Shown here: one piece after another, positions 1 to 6,778 of the stretch
Layout: each line of letters begins with the position of its first letter
Numbering within the stretch: the stretch's first letter is position 1
From: a bacterium
GTDB taxonomy: Bacteria > JALSQH01
NCBI GenBank assembly: GCA_026985515.1
Contig: JALSQH010000243.1
Location: forward strand, 1 to 6,778
DNA length: 6,778 nucleotides
Direction: 5' to 3'
Notes under the pieces: model-generated
What the model was told of the DNA's origin: nothing
Databases searched by the model: none
What the model saw: the letters and a program-made list of their open reading frames with translations, nothing else
Position numbers and translations under genes: made by a program

Positions 1-1182
1 TACAGTTGCCACTTCCATCGTGTCAACAAAGCCACCGGTAAAGTAAACAGGTGACTGTTTGTAAGAAACATGATACCTCGTCTCATACCATGATCTCCCG
101 GGAGCCTCCCCCATATCCTTTCCACCAGAACTTTTGCAGATCCTCCTCACTGCTTCCCTCTCTGCATCAACAATATCCTCTTCCCCCTCAAACATGATTA
201 TAAGCAGATTCTCTCCAGGGAGCAAATTTATCATCTTTGCAAGCCAGTTGCCATGCTTCAAAAAGTACCTCTCCGCCCTTTTTATGATTTCAGGATACTT
301 CCCGCTTATTTCACGAAACTTTTCCTTGATAAAGTTCTCCCTCTTTGCTGTCTCATCCTTCTCCCCGGAACCAACCATAATCGTATCAAGCTCGTCATAT
401 AGGCGCATAACAGGAGGTCTGATGCCAGCCTGAACGATTTTTCTCATGGCATTGAGACCCGCTTCAACACTTTTAAATCTGAACCCCAGAAAAGCTCTCT
501 TTTCAGGGAGAGGATAAATTCTGAAATACAACCGGGTAAAAATTATCATGGTACCCTCAGATCCAGCAGCGATCTCAAGGAAATTGGGATAGAGTACACC
601 TCCAGGGAGAATTCCAGTATCCACAACCTTTCCTCCGGGGAGAACTCCTCTGAAGCCAAGTAAAATGTCTTCAATTTTTCCATAAAAGGTTGAGAACTGC
701 CCTGCAGACCTTGCAGCAACCCATCCACCAGGACTTGAACAGTAGATGGAAGATGGAAAATGCCCAAGGGTAAAACCATGAAAATTCAATTCCCTCTCCA
801 GCCTCTCCCCAATAATACCTGGTTCCATAACAACCACCCTGTTTTCAGTATCAATATCAAGAATCCTGTTCATTCTTTTGAGATCAATGATAACCTCATT
901 ACGGAGAGGGAGGGTGGCTCCACAAACTCCTGACCCTGCACCATAGGGAATGATATTGATGGAATGCTCTGAGGCAAATTTTACCAGATCAACCACTTCT
1001 TTCTCCCTTGCAGGTCTCACCACAAGGGAGGGTTTATGATAGGGAAAATTTCCATAGAGAAAGGAGAGTTGTGCAAATGGATAGAGGTCTCTTGAGTAGG
1101 CTATCAGTGAGGTTTTACTATCGTCAAACTCAATTCCCCTCTCCTCGCAAAAATTTTTAAGAACTTTAATTTCCTCTGCCAT
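1..1182 (-). CDS. AGPS-type FAD-binding oxidase, C-terminus beyond the window
   Basis: An open frame runs from ATG at 1182 to the left edge without a stop, giving the first 394 residues; relatives are usually well over 450. It carries a PCMH/VAO-type FAD-binding domain: the pyrophosphate loop PYGAGSGVCG at residues 79-88, then GHFPSS...GGW at 140-154, YGKIED at 167-172 and GSEG at 207-210. The GH-P-S...GGW...YG-IED pattern is characteristic of alkyldihydroxyacetonephosphate synthase (AGPS) and its bacterial relatives rather than of GlcD or D-lactate dehydrogenase. A substrate-domain segment with W365, R369 and H371 in the SWYETRYH stretch follows. The C-terminal region, where AGPS keeps its catalytic tyrosine and histidines, is not visible, so the exact reaction is open. 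The start overlaps the upstream gene by 17 nt and has an AAGAGG ribosome site 4 nt before the ATG, so it is the last visible gene of the glp-like operon. Family call is firm; ether-lipid synthase versus another 2-hydroxyacid or DHAP-type flavoenzyme is not settled. Confidence 0.9.
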   Translation of the reverse strand, partial: MAEEIKVLKNFCEERGIEFDDSKTSLIAYSRDLYPFAQLSFLYGNFPYHKPSLVVRPAREKEVVDLVKFASEHSINIIPYGAGSGVCGATLPLRNEVIIDLKRMNRILDIDTENRVVVMEPGIIGERLERELNFHGFTLGHFPSSIYCSSPGGWVAARSAGQFSTFYGKIEDILLGFRGVLPGGKVVDTGILPGGVLYPNFLEIAAGSEGTMIIFTRLYFRIYPLPEKRAFLGFRFKSVEAGLNAMRKIVQAGIRPPVMRLYDELDTIMVGSGEKDETAKRENFIKEKFREISGKYPEIIKRAERYFLKHGNWLAKMINLLPGENLLIIMFEGEEDIVDAEREAVRRICKSSGGKDMGEAPGRSWYETRYHVSYKQSPVYFTGGFVDTMEVATV

Positions 1183-1621
1183 ACAACCTCTTTTCCTCTT
1201 TCAACCTCTCATTGAGAGATATGATGAGTTCTACTCCCTTCTTAAAGGGAACGCCGTAGGGACAGTAAATAGAATCAAGGTCAAATTTTTTCAACTCCTC
1301 AGCAAGATTGGCAATTACTATGAAATCTGGTTGTGATCTTGTAAGCAGTGATGGTATATCTGAGGGAGAAAGGGAATATTTTCTCAGAGTGGATTCAATA
1401 AATGGATTGTAATATCTGCATCTTCCACAATAGACACAACCACTCAGAGCCCTGAGAGTATCGTAATCTTCCCTTTTAAACTCTATCAGGTTATCGTCAA
1501 TAAAATTTTTCTTGAAAAGGAGGAGTTGATTGGGTCTCCTTATCAATTTCCACAACTTTACTATCCAGTGCCTGATAAAAAAAAGCCCCAGAAATAAAAT
1601 AGAGAGAAATCTTCTATTCAT
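1166..1621 (-). CDS. Small membrane-anchored Fe-S protein in the glpC position
   Basis: This is a 151-residue protein. Residues 5-20 are hydrophobic and are followed by basic residues (K22, K25, R28, R29), which suggests one membrane anchor. C62-x2-C65-x2-C68 (GCVYCGRC) comes next, and the only other cysteine is C120, followed by P121. That is enough for one [4Fe-4S] cluster, but the fourth ligand lies 52 residues after C68 rather than in the compact CxxCxxCxxxCP of ferredoxins and HdrC/GlpC; the position where that Cys is expected is Asn72. Classical GlpC is about 400 residues with two [4Fe-4S] motifs and two CCG domains, and none of the latter is present. The start overlaps the glpB-like stop by 8 nt, with a GAGG ribosome site 7 nt upstream; the stop overlaps the oxidase gene. 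By position it should carry electrons from the GlpAB-like flavoproteins to the membrane; this is inferred. Homology to GlpC is not demonstrable by eye. Confidence 0.8.
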   Translation of the reverse strand: MNRRFLSILFLGLFFIRHWIVKLWKLIRRPNQLLLFKKNFIDDNLIEFKREDYDTLRALSGCVYCGRCRYYNPFIESTLRKYSLSPSDIPSLLTRSQPDFIVIANLAEELKKFDLDSIYCPYGVPFKKGVELIISLNERLKEEKRLYGRGN

Positions 1622-2864
1622 TTAGAAACCTCACCCCTCTCAGTGAAAAAATGGCGGATGAGATACCTGTACCTGAATTGGTGTAATCAACACCAGATAC
1701 AACATTACCCACAGCATAGAGGTTTTCAAAGGTGGCTTCACCCCATCTATTAACAGGTCTGCCAGCCGAATCCCTCCTCACCCCCGCGAACCAGATGGGA
1801 TGAATCCCTGAAAAATCTTCAGAAAAGTAGCTCTGAATATCCTCCTCAGGTTTCAAAATTTCATCTCCAATGAATAGGGGGAAGTGAAAAATTGTTTCCT
1901 CAGCCCTCTTAAAATCCCTGTATATTCCTCCACCCAGAAATTTTCCAGTGGCAAGAATAAATTTATCACCTTCAATGGTATTCTGACTTTCAGTTGTCAC
2001 GCTCTCAATTCTGTTTCCCGAAGCTTTGAAACCAACTACAGTGGCTTTAACTTTAACGATATCGTCAAAAATCCTCTCACACTCATTTTCCCACCTCAGG
2101 CCAAAGGGAGACTCTTCCACAGCCACCATTTCAGATACATTGGCAGAAATTTCATCGGTGAGCATCTCGTAATGTTCCTTCCACCTGATCACCCCCAGAA
2201 TGGGAGGAATAAAGATATTGCCCCCTCTGTATTCTCTGAGAAGATCAACTAATTTCTCAAAAACAGGGGGATTTCTGTCAAGTATCCTGTTTAATTCAAG
2301 AATTGAGTAATAACCCCTCTCGCAGAAGAGACCCACCTCTCTGAGAGTTACTTTCAGATCAAGTGATGAATTCTTCAGGCTTTTTTCCACAAAAAACTTT
2401 ACTCTTTCAGCAGGAAGGTCAGAAATACATCGGGGAACCACAACCACCACTTCGCCGGAAGAGGGAAGTGGAAGAATAGTTTTCCAGGAAGTAATACCAG
2501 TTCTGATCGTACCCTCCACAGTCAGAAATGGAAGGGTTTTGCTTGAAATGGGAAAAAACAGATTATCGCCTCTCGCAGTGGTAAAAACTTTTCTCAGATA
2601 ACCTTCAATATCTTTGCCGGAAAATCCGTGGAAAATGTGCTGGGGAAAATAGGTGGCAACTCTTTCAAACAACTCTGAGATTTCCATACCTATCTGTTCC
2701 CCATGAGGAACACCGGGCAGCCAGCCCCCATTTACCACACCGGAGAACTGCCAGGTGGATCCCCTTCTGTTATCTATGGCGATAACCTCGTAACCTTTCT
2801 CTATCAGGAGTCTGGAGGCAAATCTCCCTGCACTTCCACAGCCAATTACAACCACCCTCTCCAT
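1614..2864 (-). CDS. glpB: GlpB-like anaerobic glycerol-3-phosphate dehydrogenase subunit B
   Basis: This is a 416-residue flavoprotein, close to the 419 of E. coli GlpB. An N-terminal dinucleotide-binding fold has the glycine motif G8-C-G10-S-A-G13, with the strand ending IAID31 and then a GlpB-like stretch at 35-47 (GSTWQFSG...NGG). A second characteristic patch, ILATGKFLGGGI, lies near 303-314. The C-terminal flavin-contact motif ENLYAVGNVVSG runs from 380 to 391 and leads into DYTNSGTGISSAI. In the known GlpABC complex GlpB binds FMN and passes electrons from the GlpA FAD toward the membrane subunit. The ATG shares its A with the stop of the upstream glpA-like gene (TGATG), and a strong GAGGGAG site lies 5 nt upstream, so the two are translationally coupled. 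The pairing with a glpA-like gene supports the subunit assignment more than the sequence alone, since a wider family of FAD-dependent oxidoreductases shares these motifs. Confidence 0.85.
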   Translation of the reverse strand: MERVVVIGCGSAGRFASRLLIEKGYEVIAIDNRRGSTWQFSGVVNGGWLPGVPHGEQIGMEISELFERVATYFPQHIFHGFSGKDIEGYLRKVFTTARGDNLFFPISSKTLPFLTVEGTIRTGITSWKTILPLPSSGEVVVVVPRCISDLPAERVKFFVEKSLKNSSLDLKVTLREVGLFCERGYYSILELNRILDRNPPVFEKLVDLLREYRGGNIFIPPILGVIRWKEHYEMLTDEISANVSEMVAVEESPFGLRWENECERIFDDIVKVKATVVGFKASGNRIESVTTESQNTIEGDKFILATGKFLGGGIYRDFKRAEETIFHFPLFIGDEILKPEEDIQSYFSEDFSGIHPIWFAGVRRDSAGRPVNRWGEATFENLYAVGNVVSGVDYTNSGTGISSAIFSLRGVRFLNE

Positions 2865-4498
2865 CAGAACTCCCTCAGTCCACTGTTACCGAGCAACTGA
2901 CCGTGGAGAAGTTCCTCATAGGCCAGTTGAATACCAGCAAGGACAGGTTTTCTCAATTTGAACATGTGTTGCATATATTCCCTGAGGAGCCAGGATCGGT
3001 ATGAAGCATCTCCATTGTGGTACTCTCTCATTATTTCAGCGGCAATCATGGCATTTCTTCCTCCACCTGGTCCCATGCCAAGCCTCGTTCTTCTGCTCAC
3101 ATCTGAAAGAGTAACAGCCATCTCATTCTTTATCACATAAAAGATCTCAGCCTTCATCACCTGTTCATCAGGATCAACCATCATGAATCCATCCTTTGTC
3201 TCCTTTGCCATTTCAAGAATATCCACACTTCTGCTTCCATATCTGAAAATAAGTTTTGCAGCAGTCATGGGGGATATACCATATTCACCTGCCAGTGCCA
3301 TCGGGTCCATCTTTTTCTCACCACCTGGAAGGGGGATTTTATGGGTTCTGCACTTTTTTCTTACCTTCAATTCCTTTGAAATAATGTCCACAGCCTCCTG
3401 GCTCATGAGCCTGTATGCGGCTAATTTCCCACCTGCTATACTGTAAAGGCCCTTAACACCATCCAGCTCACCATGGTTGTAGACTCTGTGATCTCTGGAA
3501 AGGTCATCCTCATTGACACCATACTGGTAAAGGGTGGGTCTGATTCCAGCATAAGCCCTGATTATCCTTGCCTCCCTGACTCTGGGAACGACGGTTTCAA
3601 TACTTGAAAGGAGATACTCAATCTCATCGTGGAGAATGGGAATGTTATCCAGATCTCCGAAGTAATCATCATCGGTGGTACCAATTATGGAGTTGTTTTC
3701 ATGGGGCATGATGAATATTGACCTGCCGTCAAGCGCCTTTACAATGATGCCATTATTGGAGAATCTCCTGTCAAGTACAATGTGAACCCCTTTACTGGGC
3801 CTGATTTTGATTCTCACTCCCGCTATATCAGCAACTTTCATCAACCATGGACCGGTAGCAATAAAAACCACCTCACCCTGATATGTTTTCTCCTCCCCAC
3901 TTATGCTGTTTCTGGTAACCACTCCCCTCACCCTGCCATTTTCCACAATAAACTTTACCACCTCGGTATGATTGAGCACATCTGCACCCGCTTCCTTTGC
4001 AGAGACAGCGTTGAGGACAGTCAGCCTGTATGGATCAATTCCGAACTCATCCATTGTAACAGCACCTGCAATATCTTCAGAAACCTCAGGTTCAATCTCC
4101 CTGACCTCTTTTGCAGAAAGCCTTGCGTGGGGCTTTCCATTTTTCAGAGGGGCAAAAAAATCATACGCTTCAAAATAGGTTTCAAGTAACTCGGCAAATA
4201 TTTTTGAGTCACCCTCTTTGAAGGGGTAGAGAAACGGGATGCGGAAGAGGAGATGAGGGGCAATTTTCTGAATGTAACCACTGTCAACACACGATTTTCT
4301 GGTGGTATGAACATCTGATATGAGGTATCGCAGACCACCATGAATCATGCCACTGCTTCCACCAGTGGCACCAACAGCAAAATCGTCCTTCTCAATGAGG
4401 AGAGTTTTAATTCCCCTGAGAGCCGCGTCCCTCGCTATGCCCGCACCATTTACCCCCCCACCTACCACAATTAACTGATAAGAATCCTTCTCACTCAT
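2864..4498 (-). CDS. glpA: GlpA-like FAD-dependent glycerol-3-phosphate dehydrogenase lacking [2Fe-2S] cysteines
   Basis: This 544-residue protein (E. coli GlpA is 542) oxidises sn-glycerol 3-phosphate to DHAP in the family. A DAO-type FAD domain starts with GGGVNGAG at 13-20 and acidic E36, then SSGMIHGGLRYL at 48-59, RPSKGVHIVLD at 233-243, IIGTTDDDYFGD at 271-282, RAYAGIRP at 314-321 and GGKLAAYR at 356-363. The HGGLRYL and SKGVHIV forms are closer to aerobic GlpD than to E. coli GlpA. The C-terminal BFD-like region is still recognisable (EIFYVI at 451-456, SRRTRLGMG at 468-476), but the four Fe-S cysteines are replaced by D442, D444, G478 and A483. The whole protein has only two cysteines (C70, C383), so no [2Fe-2S] cluster is expected. 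It is the first gene of the operon, sharing 1 nt with glpB. No Shine-Dalgarno precedes the ATG, and a promoter 7 nt upstream implies a leaderless message. A stand-alone GlpD role is possible but less likely given the glpB partner. Confidence 0.92.
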   Translation of the reverse strand: MSEKDSYQLIVVGGGVNGAGIARDAALRGIKTLLIEKDDFAVGATGGSSGMIHGGLRYLISDVHTTRKSCVDSGYIQKIAPHLLFRIPFLYPFKEGDSKIFAELLETYFEAYDFFAPLKNGKPHARLSAKEVREIEPEVSEDIAGAVTMDEFGIDPYRLTVLNAVSAKEAGADVLNHTEVVKFIVENGRVRGVVTRNSISGEEKTYQGEVVFIATGPWLMKVADIAGVRIKIRPSKGVHIVLDRRFSNNGIIVKALDGRSIFIMPHENNSIIGTTDDDYFGDLDNIPILHDEIEYLLSSIETVVPRVREARIIRAYAGIRPTLYQYGVNEDDLSRDHRVYNHGELDGVKGLYSIAGGKLAAYRLMSQEAVDIISKELKVRKKCRTHKIPLPGGEKKMDPMALAGEYGISPMTAAKLIFRYGSRSVDILEMAKETKDGFMMVDPDEQVMKAEIFYVIKNEMAVTLSDVSRRTRLGMGPGGGRNAMIAAEIMREYHNGDASYRSWLLREYMQHMFKLRKPVLAGIQLAYEELLHGQLLGNSGLREF

Positions 4499-4545: not shown

Positions 4546-4575
4546 ACCCAAAATCACAATTAGGAGATTTTGGGT
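4546..4575 (-). terminator. Terminator-like stem-loop between the orphan genes and the glp-like operon
   Basis: A perfect 10-bp inverted repeat (4546-4555 with 4566-4575) encloses a 10-nt loop. Read on the minus strand it is ACCCAAAATC...GATTTTGGGT followed by TTCTCTTTCCC, a pyrimidine-rich but interrupted tail. It lies 32 nt after the stop of the 299-residue gene and 12 nt before the -35 box of the next operon, as expected of a rho-independent terminator. The stem is AT-rich and the T-run is broken, so termination may be partial; an operator role beside the promoter is the alternative. Confidence 0.55.
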
Positions 4576-4606
4576 GACTAAAGATTTATTATTCAAAACT
4601 TATACC

Positions 4607-5506
4607 TTATATTCCGCCGTCACCTAAAGGGTGACGGCTGTGAGGTGCTGATTTATAGTGATAAAAAGGCAGAGATGGATTAACCAGATTTCTATTTGAT
4701 GATTTCGGTGATAAATTCGTCCTGTATTTCTTATCTGTTAAGAATCTTTTAGCATCTATCTTCTTCTCCTTTATCCCTTTATAAACTAAATTATCAATCT
4801 GCCTTAATATCTCCCCGCTCTTCTCCAAGTTTATTCCAAGCAATTTCGCAATTTCTTTAAACAGCTTTTTGAGTTCCTCATAACCTTCTTTAGTGTGTTT
4901 TTCCTTTTGTTGTACGTTTTTGGCCTCTTTTTTTGTTCCCCCTGTCCAGCCCTTTTGGTCTTCTCTTTTTGTAGCCGTCTGTGTCTGCCCCGCCGTAATC
5001 TCCTGCTTCTTCTTCTCATGCACCCCTTTCTCCAGCGCATTGGACACGCTCTGTAGATGATCGAAGAGGAGTGTATCTAAATAATTAAACTCCTTTATTG
5101 AAGCTATGAAGTTGCCTTTAGCTTCCTCCACCTCCTTATTATTTCCTGCTTTCAGGTTCATATAGTAGCTTTTCAAATAGCTCTTAGCCATAGTGAGGGA
5201 AGTATAAGCTTCCTCTATCTCCTTTTTAGTCTCCTCACTCAACCCGGGCATCTTCATTAGCTTTTCATACACATTTTGCCATCTATCCAAGACGTTTATG
5301 AGCTCCTTTATCTTCTCATTTCTCTGCTTAATAAGAGCTGCCTTCTCCTCGGGCGTTTTAGCCTGAGAGATTTTTTTGCTTATACCTGCAATTTCAGCCA
5401 ATAGCAGTTTCTCTTTATCTGCTAGCCTATTTTCCTGATGTATTTGTCTGTCTAAAAGCTCTTTGTTAATACCTTTCTTTTTGCCGGCTTCGACTGTTGA
5501 GCCCAT
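4607..5506 (-). CDS. Unrecognised lysine/glutamate-rich coiled-coil protein
   Basis: I do not recognise this 299-residue protein. It has no cysteine, no signal peptide and no membrane segment. Residues about 12-75 and 87-170 are rich in K, E, L and I with heptad-like spacing, suggesting long helices or coiled coil. Residues about 163-208 are a Q/K/T/G-rich low-complexity linker, and 209-255 form a further helical block. The tail from about 262 changes character (R, N, S, P, H, G) and its last part is encoded by a perfect hairpin at 4616-4638, so the original C-terminus may have been overwritten by a repeat insertion. The gene follows the hydrophobic-N-terminus gene by 53 nt and is AT-richer than the glp genes. 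No Shine-Dalgarno precedes the ATG; instead TAAAAT lies 7 nt upstream, the same arrangement as at glpA. The two orphans probably act together; the role is unknown. Confidence 0.75.
   Translation of the reverse strand: MGSTVEAGKKKGINKELLDRQIHQENRLADKEKLLLAEIAGISKKISQAKTPEEKAALIKQRNEKIKELINVLDRWQNVYEKLMKMPGLSEETKKEIEEAYTSLTMAKSYLKSYYMNLKAGNNKEVEEAKGNFIASIKEFNYLDTLLFDHLQSVSNALEKGVHEKKKQEITAGQTQTATKREDQKGWTGGTKKEAKNVQQKEKHTKEGYEELKKLFKEIAKLLGINLEKSGEILRQIDNLVYKGIKEKKIDAKRFLTDKKYRTNLSPKSSNRNLVNPSLPFYHYKSAPHSRHPLGDGGI
4616..4638. repeat. REP-like perfect palindrome inside the 3' end of a coding region
   Basis: GCCGTCACC (4616-4624) and GGTGACGGC (4630-4638) form a perfect 9-bp GC-rich stem with a 5-nt loop. 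It lies within the last codons of the 299-residue gene (minus strand) and encodes RHPLGDG. No T-run follows on either strand, so it is a poor terminator. Its GC content contrasts with the AT-rich flanks, as in dispersed palindromic (REP-like) elements. Whether further copies exist cannot be seen here. Confidence 0.5.
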
Positions 5507-5559: not shown

Positions 5560-6447
5560 CTACCAATCATCTAGTATTTTATCAATCTCCTTGTTTATTC
5601 TTTTCCTTTTCTTAACATAATTCCCAATCTTCTCCGCCGTCTCGTGCCATCCTTTTTCTTCTTTATCCAGCTCTTCCGCCTTCTTAGAATGCACATACAT
5701 CCCTACCGTCAGTTTCCAATTCTTAAAGTAGCCACTCAATTCCATTAGCATATACCCATAAGCAGCATAATCGGCTCCTTTATCCAAGCAGCTATCCTTA
5801 TAACCCGCACAGTAACCATTTAACGCTCTGTTAAAGTAATTATACCCAACATTAACATTTATTTCTCCCATTTTTTCATACTGCTCAGCCAACCGCTTGG
5901 CATCTTCTTCTGTTATGTTTAGAAAGGGCCCATATCTAGCAGCTTCTACTTCTTTTTCTGCAATCTTATCTATAGATTCTTCAAATGAAATCTCTCCTTT
6001 AATGTACTGCTTATGATATGTCTTTGTTTCATCATACAGCTTAAGCACCTTCTCCATAGCTCTTTTACCTATCTCCTGTTTTGTAGGCTCCCTTCCCAGC
6101 TCTTCTTTAAGCTCCTCTATTATTTCTTTCTTTGCTCCTTCAAATGCTTCAAGTGTTTTCTTATAATCATCAGCATCTCCGAAAATAAATTTCGTCCATT
6201 TATCGTAACTTTCATCAAGAGCTCTTTTCTCCTCATCTGTTAATTTCGTCCTCCCCATCATACTCCTTACATCTAAGTAATCCGCCCTCAGCTCTTTAAC
6301 GCTTATAACCTCTTCAACTACATCCTTAAACTTATCACTTATCTTTAAGGGCGTTCTATTCACTGCCTTTCCCTTAAATGAATGAATAGTAAAAGCAGCA
6401 ATTCCTGTAATTAAGAGAAAATAAAATGAATTTACCAACTTCTTCAT
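5560..6447 (-). CDS. Unrecognised protein with N-terminal signal or membrane anchor
   Basis: I do not recognise this protein of 295 residues (296 if the preceding GTG is used). A basic start (MKKLVNSFYF) leads into a hydrophobic stretch to about residue 21 (LLITGIAAF), typical of a signal peptide or signal anchor, so the rest is probably outside the cytoplasm. No lipobox cysteine is evident. Most of residues 35-195 is charged and helical (K/E/D-rich). A distinct aromatic region at 200-255 contains NGYC-AGYKDSC with the only two cysteines, 7 residues apart and able to form a disulfide if exported. The ATG at 6447 is preferred over the adjacent GTG at 6450 because GGGAGG (6459-6454) is 6 nt from the ATG but only 3 nt from the GTG. 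The gene has its own promoter at 6478-6506 and is followed after 53 nt by the coiled-coil gene, probably in the same transcript. Confidence 0.78.
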   Translation of the reverse strand: MKKLVNSFYFLLITGIAAFTIHSFKGKAVNRTPLKISDKFKDVVEEVISVKELRADYLDVRSMMGRTKLTDEEKRALDESYDKWTKFIFGDADDYKKTLEAFEGAKKEIIEELKEELGREPTKQEIGKRAMEKVLKLYDETKTYHKQYIKGEISFEESIDKIAEKEVEAARYGPFLNITEEDAKRLAEQYEKMGEINVNVGYNYFNRALNGYCAGYKDSCLDKGADYAAYGYMLMELSGYFKNWKLTVGMYVHSKKAEELDKEEKGWHETAEKIGNYVKKRKRINKEIDKILDDW

Positions 6448-6453
6448 CACAAA

Positions 6454-6459
6454 CCTCCC
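6454..6459 (-). promoter_or_regulatory. Ribosome binding site deciding the start of the orphan gene
   Basis: GGGAGG on the minus strand is followed by TTTGTGATG. The 6-nt gap to ATG is normal; the 3-nt gap to GTG is too short. This selects ATG at 6447. Confidence 0.75.
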
Positions 6460-6477
6460 ACTTGCCTTATCACTTTC

Positions 6478-6506
6478 ATTTTATTACCGATTCAGGAGAA
6501 ATGCAA
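6478..6506 (-). promoter_or_regulatory. Possible sigma70-like promoter next to the repeat array
   Basis: On the minus strand TTGCAT (6506-6501; only TTG matches consensus) is followed after 17 bp by TAAAAT (6483-6478; 5 of 6). Initiation about 7 nt downstream would give a leader near 25 nt that includes the GGGAGG ribosome site. The -35 element ends exactly where the first repeat copy begins (6507), so structure in the array could influence this promoter. Confidence 0.45.
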
Positions 6507-6526
6507 GGAAAGGGAGAAATGAACAA

Positions 6527-6541
6527 ACCTGCGGGGCGGGT
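6527..6541 (+). repeat. Small hairpin within each repeat copy
   Basis: ACCTGC (6527-6532) pairs with GCGGGT (6536-6541) around a GGG loop, including one T-G wobble that would be an A-C mismatch on the other strand. In the second copy (6756-6770) the single substitution places C before the stem, opposite G, which lengthens the helix by one pair. Confidence 0.5.
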
Positions 6542-6734
6542 GGAGACCTTCTGTCCCGGAGTGGTTTTGTGACGGAGACAGACACGATGGGATAAAGGCG
6601 GAGCAATCGTGGAATGCCCACAGAGGAAGACATCCTTTTTGCGGAGCCTCCCATCGAGTCGGCTGTGAAAGTGGTTTACTCAAATGAACTCACTACCACG
6701 GAGTCACACTTAACGGAGGGACAGAAGGTCGGAA
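6541..6734 (+). ncRNA. Candidate structured RNA (or foldable DNA) with repeated GGA/GGA internal loops
   Basis: A perfect 13-bp helix joins 6545-6557 to 6718-6730. Inside it, 6568-6573 pairs with 6703-6708; 6585-6591 with 6650-6656; 6596-6599 with 6646-6649; 6603-6606 with 6639-6642. The last closes a three-way junction of two hairpins (6609-6612/6618-6621 and 6622-6627/6633-6638). A further hairpin is 6671-6675/6695-6699. Between successive helices GGA lies opposite GGA four times: 6542-6544/6731-6733, 6558-6560/6715-6717, 6574-6576/6700-6702 and 6600-6602/6643-6645. GGA/GGA permits sheared G-A pairs on the plus strand, and the wobbles G6623-T6637 and that of the adjacent hairpin also favour the plus strand. 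I do not match it to tRNA, rRNA, tmRNA, RNase P RNA, a group II intron or a CRISPR. Expression is not shown by sequence; a foldable single-strand DNA element is the alternative. Confidence 0.5.
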
Positions 6735-6778
6735 AGGGGGATGGGAAATGAACACACCTGCGGGGCGGGTGGAGACCT

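Follow-up and report, generated by a model that had tools for sequence, protein, structure and literature searches.

The locus and its predicted fold

The window that we analysed is a stretch of 6,778 nucleotides and makes up the whole of one contig (C243) of a 2.36 Mb draft genome, which is 97.6% complete and consists of 268 contigs. On the minus strand, positions 1-4498 hold an operon-like run of genes resembling those for the anaerobic glycerol-3-phosphate dehydrogenase proteins GlpA and GlpB and for a GlcD-like FAD oxidase; since the scores lie below the curated NCBIfam cut-offs, we regard the encoded proteins as diverged relatives. Two further minus-strand genes (4607-5506 and 5560-6450) have predicted products of 299 and 296 residues, which appear lysine- and glutamate-rich by eye, and which have no Pfam match above the cut-off and no NCBIfam match. 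Positions 4552-4708 belong to a second dispersed repeat, which is 78% identical to positions 3648-3806 of a stretch of contig C204 (L024) and contains a hairpin (CCGTCACC/GGTGACGG).

The element studied here lies at the other end of the window, where a sequence-only reading had proposed a nested fold with GGA/GGA internal loops, possibly representing a new class of structured RNA or DNA. Its features are as follows, with pairing partners taken from the predicted fold unless described as proposed.

6509-6540, plus strand: linker preceding the unit, which also precedes the unit in other copies
6541-6734, plus strand: core of the repeat unit, a nested fold with a three-way junction (minimum free energy -82.1 kcal/mol, z -5.79)
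6542-6544, plus strand: GGA beyond the outer helix, with 6731-6733 (GGA in 7 of 8 full copies)
6545-6557, plus strand: 5′ arm of the outer 13-bp helix, a perfect inverted repeat (10 of 13 pairs invariant among copies)
6558-6560, plus strand: GGA facing GGA 6715-6717 (closing pairs 0.999 and 0.857)
6574-6576, plus strand: GGA with proposed partner 6700-6702, predicted to lie in the three-way junction (inner closing pair 0.000)
6600-6602, plus strand: GGA facing GGA 6643-6645 (closing pairs 0.999 and 0.998)
6643-6645, plus strand: GGA facing 6600-6602, from base-pair probabilities
6700-6702, plus strand: GGA with proposed partner 6574-6576, its first two bases predicted to pair with the arm 6663-6667
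6715-6717, plus strand: GGA facing 6558-6560, from base-pair probabilities
6718-6730, plus strand: 3′ arm of the outer 13-bp helix, the portion of the family with the most copies
6731-6733, plus strand: GGA beyond the outer helix, with 6542-6544 (GGA in 9 of 10 copies)
6735-6778, plus strand: linker followed by the beginning of another tandem unit, which the end of the contig truncates (97% identity between 6745-6778 and 6516-6549)

Much of what had been read from the letters is borne out. The pentamer CGGAG occurs at exactly the six positions claimed for it (6557, 6573, 6599, 6642, 6699 and 6714), with only two more occurrences on the plus strand of the window, and this number is beyond chance: the mean in dinucleotide shuffles of the unit was 0.42, and six was not attained in any of 5000. 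The 13-bp inverted repeat (6545-6557 and 6718-6730) is perfect, with 100% complementary arms, and the triplets of the fourth GGA/GGA proposed at the outer end of this helix are both in place. Folded as plus-strand RNA, the core has a minimum free energy that none of 200 shuffled sequences matched, as the proposal required. Its fold also stands out from shuffles as minus-strand RNA (z -6.24) and as single-stranded DNA (z -5.13).

The proposal that the six CGGAG copies form three facing pairs survives for two of them. Base-pair probabilities support 6557/6714 and 6599/6642 but not 6573/6699, where the outer C-G pair forms (0.99) and the inner G-C pair has a probability of 0.000. Forcing all three pairs yields a structure of -75.3 kcal/mol, about 7 (6.8) kcal/mol worse than the unconstrained optimum. 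The middle GGA/GGA step is absent from the predicted fold because this region prefers the three-way junction. Thus, the use of one motif at every helix boundary was overstated; other internal loops, as well as the junction, lack GGA/GGA. The linker of the window copy can form a hairpin of 6 bp (ACCTGC GGG GCGGGT, -7.6 kcal/mol), but in two other linker variants the hairpin is weak and folding is no better than that of shuffles, so we give it no weight.

The stretch had been taken for a single element. Its sequence and strong fold largely stand, but it is really a unit of a repeat that is both tandem and interspersed: the earlier reading had missed that the unit restarts at 6745 and is repeated across the genome. 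Given that the unit belongs to such a repeat, it is better labelled first as a 'repetitive element' than as a 'new RNA class'.

Copies, arrays and junctions

The repeat has a period of 229 bases, position 6745 restarting the sequence found at 6516, and each unit combines the folded core of 194 bases with a linker about 35 bases long. A 299-base query gave 16 matches at E <= 1e-3 on 10 contigs, and a 241-base query gave 18. At 0-1 mismatches, the genome has 16 copies of a 15-base sequence from the 3′ arm, counted separately from the complementary 5′ arm, while a 21-base piece from the middle of the unit has 10 copies, all exact, with no near misses in the genome at up to three mismatches. Other full copies are about 90-94% identical to the window copy over the unit. 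Maps of open reading frames in the window and nine contigs place the copies in intergenic stretches, at about ten loci whose neighbouring genes are ordinary and have no relation to each other. Five contigs (C243, C68, C141, C155 and C204) end within a copy or at its edge, and the true copy number is therefore probably higher.

The assembled loci range in content from a fragment to slightly more than two units, and include single units and short head-to-tail arrays. Two-unit blocks are alike between loci (C13 and C141, 93% over 407 bases; C71 and C141, 94% over 323 bases), and multi-unit blocks have therefore probably spread together.

All nine readable 3′ ends of arrays stop within or just past the same linker. 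A further 3′ tail of up to about 70 bases is common to C68, C141, C222 and a solitary repeat piece on C205, and is more weakly present in C13. Some pairwise similarities between these tails exceed all 300 shuffles, and searching with a composite query brought up tail sequence at five loci. We considered whether the tail is a decayed further unit, which it seemed to resemble by eye, and rejected this idea, as alignment against shuffles gave no support. The 5′ edges differ from each other: the arrays on C205, C71, C204, C222 and C13, and the solitary C205 piece, all start inside the unit. Some of these edges (e.g. in C71 and C204) have a decayed stretch before the clear match and do not look like sharp cuts. 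Since C13 and the solitary C205 piece have 170 upstream bases in common, we counted them as one event. The asymmetry between 5′ and 3′ ends thus comes from only about five independent 5′ truncations and is suggestive only.

The bases common to C13 and C205 (L017:2503-2675 and L018:4536-4710, about 170 bases) lie beside a repeat fragment of 28-30 bases. The genes after this fragment (L017:2709-4730 and L018:4747-6504) are weakly similar, with 67% DNA identity over part of their length, and have no Pfam match. These two sites are a duplicated gene region that carries a repeat fragment. A gene for a ParE-like type II toxin (PF05016) is found between the two C205 repeat loci, at L018:4141-4404.

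At the other repeat locus of C205, the 3′ end of the array is directly joined to the first 56 or so codons of an AAA-ATPase-like gene (L018:3378-3552). Relatives of this gene are found on C13 (L017:4805-5460; PF09820, E 8e-46), where it runs off the contig end, and on C204 (L024, from about 6565), and the remainder of the gene has no match in C205. The join falls in a shared GCAGGTTTG, which fits microhomology-mediated or short-homology recombination, although one such join is too little to establish it. The pvlArgDC-like gene that follows the C71 array has a counterpart (88% identical protein) in G001, the one further genome of the phylum that we searched. There, the gene is preceded by a short spacer without the repeat, yet the upstream neighbour differs from that in C71, and this site is therefore not a clean empty site in which to recognise a target-site duplication; none was identified.

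Search for relatives and test of fold conservation

In agreement with the earlier impression that the stretch matches no known RNA family, Rfam searches with the window and with four other contigs gave no match at the gathering score, and neither did a permissive scan of 6400-6778 (best sub-threshold hit 12.2 bits, E 1.7). No Rfam ribozyme matched, and we rejected a viroid-like or ribozyme identity. A protein-coding role was also rejected: the period of 229 is not divisible by 3, and variable columns show no clear preference for one codon position (9, 6 and 9 in a minus-strand open reading frame). Outside the genome, no relative was detected by a covariance-model search of 289 other genomes, whose strict filters may miss weak matches, by a DNA search of 58 other genomes, or elsewhere in the phylum (DNA search, 2 genomes). 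A permissive model search of G001 had a best E of 0.2, which is not convincing.

Searches with exact patterns, which catch close relatives only, found no relative in viral or GTDB contigs, and phage and plasmid collections held none either. A 16-mer had ten matches in viral contigs and an 18-base pattern was found at ten places in GTDB contigs, in both cases with little or no extension past the pattern, and these are about the numbers expected by chance. In JAKQNO01 (isolate USDV_metabat.159), two places (L060:2611-2631 and L063:6064-6206) have an exact match of 21-22 bases to the 3′ arm. These matches consist of the 18-base pattern plus 3-4 bases, and lie in intergenic, purine-rich short repeats (GGACAGAAGGACAGAAGG...) that contain no unit; the resemblance is probably convergent. 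In L063, complementary pyrimidine repeats come after the purine-rich ones, and the two could form a long hairpin.

Because no homologue was found outside the genome, compensatory change could be counted only among the copies within it, and the counts carry little information. Among ten copies, a single pair has changed on both sides, a count that 277 of 500 shuffles equalled or exceeded. In the fixed fold, 8 variants in paired columns keep the pair and 13 break it, so any preservation lies in the placement of variants, not in compensation. Variable columns are rarer among paired columns (19 of 126) than among unpaired ones (19 of 68). Conservation of GGA positions, which the earlier reading had made a check of its proposal, largely holds for the eight triplets among the copies, with 3 of 24 GGA columns variable as against 16 of 46 other unpaired columns.

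We compared the 41 distinct variants of the ten copies, each placed singly in the consensus, with random variants having the same base change. On average, real variants destabilised the ensemble by 0.55 kcal/mol on the plus strand, compared with 1.53 for random ones (P 0.0003), and by 0.14 compared with 1.10 kcal/mol on the minus strand (P 0.0001); these P values are approximate because the copies share ancestry, and they refer to a fold predicted from the same sequences. The arm 6661-6702 is variable and shows no fold-sparing effect by itself, and the overall effect persists when it is left out (P 0.0002 for the plus and 0.003 for the minus strand). A per-copy version of the test agrees, with 3 of 8 copies clear on each strand and none worse than random. 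These results suggest that the fold is under selection, and, with both strands passing, they do not distinguish one strand from the other or RNA from DNA. The preservation could also stem from an active master copy instead of a present function.

Spread of the repeat and its place among known families

We consider it probable that the stretch is a unit of a non-coding, structure-forming interspersed intergenic repeat that spreads without a transposase of its own. The copy number, tandem period, intergenic positions, common end point in the linker and retention of the fold beyond chance are observations; from this anatomy and the fold statistics we infer every step of the mechanism. Units would multiply inside arrays through slippage during replication or through unequal recombination, and recombination would also carry arrays to new sites, in DNA events that keep the 3′ side constant and remove varying lengths from the 5′ side. 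An influence of folded repeats on neighbouring transcripts has been proposed for ERIC and BIME. The fold might be kept because RNA copies made by read-through influence the stability of neighbouring transcripts or their termination and are mildly useful, or, alternatively, as a requirement for spread. Most likely, the repeat is passive but structurally constrained.

The strong fold, the variants that mostly spare it and the low variability of GGA columns relative to other unpaired ones could also be explained by a multicopy family of structured non-coding RNA genes whose transcripts would have a specific role and whose GGA/GGA loops would bind protein or make tertiary contacts. Several variable pairs that change via G-U on the plus strand (6592/6649, A-U/G-U/G-C; 6672/6695, U-G, C-G and U-A) also agree with this explanation. 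However, the surroundings of the unit showed neither a sigma-70-like promoter nor an intrinsic terminator, the minus strand keeps the fold equally well, copies are cut short and adjoin unrelated genes, and the one other genome of the phylum that was searched (G001) has no convincing match. We therefore regard RNA genes as unlikely, though less so than the explanations that follow. A MITE that is bounded by the 13-bp inverted repeat and mobilised by a transposase in trans would account for a multicopy, intergenic element, and the inverted repeat has the size of terminal inverted repeats. Yet this inverted repeat is internal: the linker accompanies it, also at C45, which holds a single unit, and in solitary 3′ fragments, and the arm is in no other genome context at 0-1 mismatches over 15 bases. 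An element that extends past its inverted repeat argues against a MITE, and of all the explanations we find this one the hardest to credit.

The nine constant 3′ ends, when set against several truncated 5′ ends, and the 3′ tail common to some loci resemble what is expected of a one-ended mobile element that moves by reverse transcription or a rolling circle, with the 3′ end as the start of copying, the 5′ ends as variable stops and the arrays as products of multimeric copying. Such an element is improbable in our view: there is no poly(A)-like tail, the independent truncations are few, and neither a reverse transcriptase (PF00078) nor a Y1 HUH transposase or RAYT (PF01797) was matched in the 97.6% complete draft genome. 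These two negative results argue against retro- or RAYT-type movement, not against movement by other enzymes; the search, which covered these two domains, identified no mobilising enzyme. We are just as sceptical of a version in which folded RNA or single-stranded DNA is the mobile intermediate, combining 3′-fixed multimer copying and 5′ truncation in a lineage without a recognisable reverse transcriptase or Y1 transposase, and in which the GGA/GGA loops would serve as recognition sites of an unknown enzyme.

Returning to a repeat dispersed by recombination, the best reading is that it constitutes a new family of a known kind, the structure-forming intergenic repeats of bacteria such as ERIC, BOX, STAR and BIME. 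It occurs in multiple dispersed copies, between genes, with a common fold beyond chance (z about -6). BOX elements have a modular structure, in which an internal module is repeated, whereas here the whole unit is repeated. Both are interspersed intergenic repeats with a component in variable copy number. The size and copy number of BOX in pneumococcus are catalogued (PMC2267715). The catalogue of Cozzuto et al. comprises 92 families, two thirds of which have a common predicted structure and are intergenic; ERIC, PU-BIME, NEMIS and YPAL, with tens of copies and often a proposed effect on mRNA, share with our repeat an intergenic position and a common predicted fold (PMC2267715), a likeness for which sequence was compared through Rfam only. 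The structured families in this catalogue often form a single stem-loop, and some form double or more complex structures, while the present unit combines a three-way junction, repeated GGA/GGA loops and tandem arrays (PMC2267715). STAR elements of Staphylococcus are interspersed direct repeats that occupy different loci in different species, and whose arrays expand and contract (PMC3532100). Our repeat is like them in being interspersed and intergenic, in forming direct repeats in arrays of variable number and in that the means of spread is unknown; however, STAR units are GC-rich 14-bp repeats with recurring spacers of at least 40 bp, whereas the unit here is about 229 bp long and almost wholly foldable (PMC3532100).

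Among the folding intergenic repeats of bacteria, this new member is unusually long and elaborate; it comes from a phylum of which two genomes were searched. Its copies, which differ by about 8%, amount to a small natural mutagenesis set, with which preservation of a fold can be tested without other species. If the one-ended pattern is borne out in a closed genome, one would have to ask which enzyme moves the repeat.
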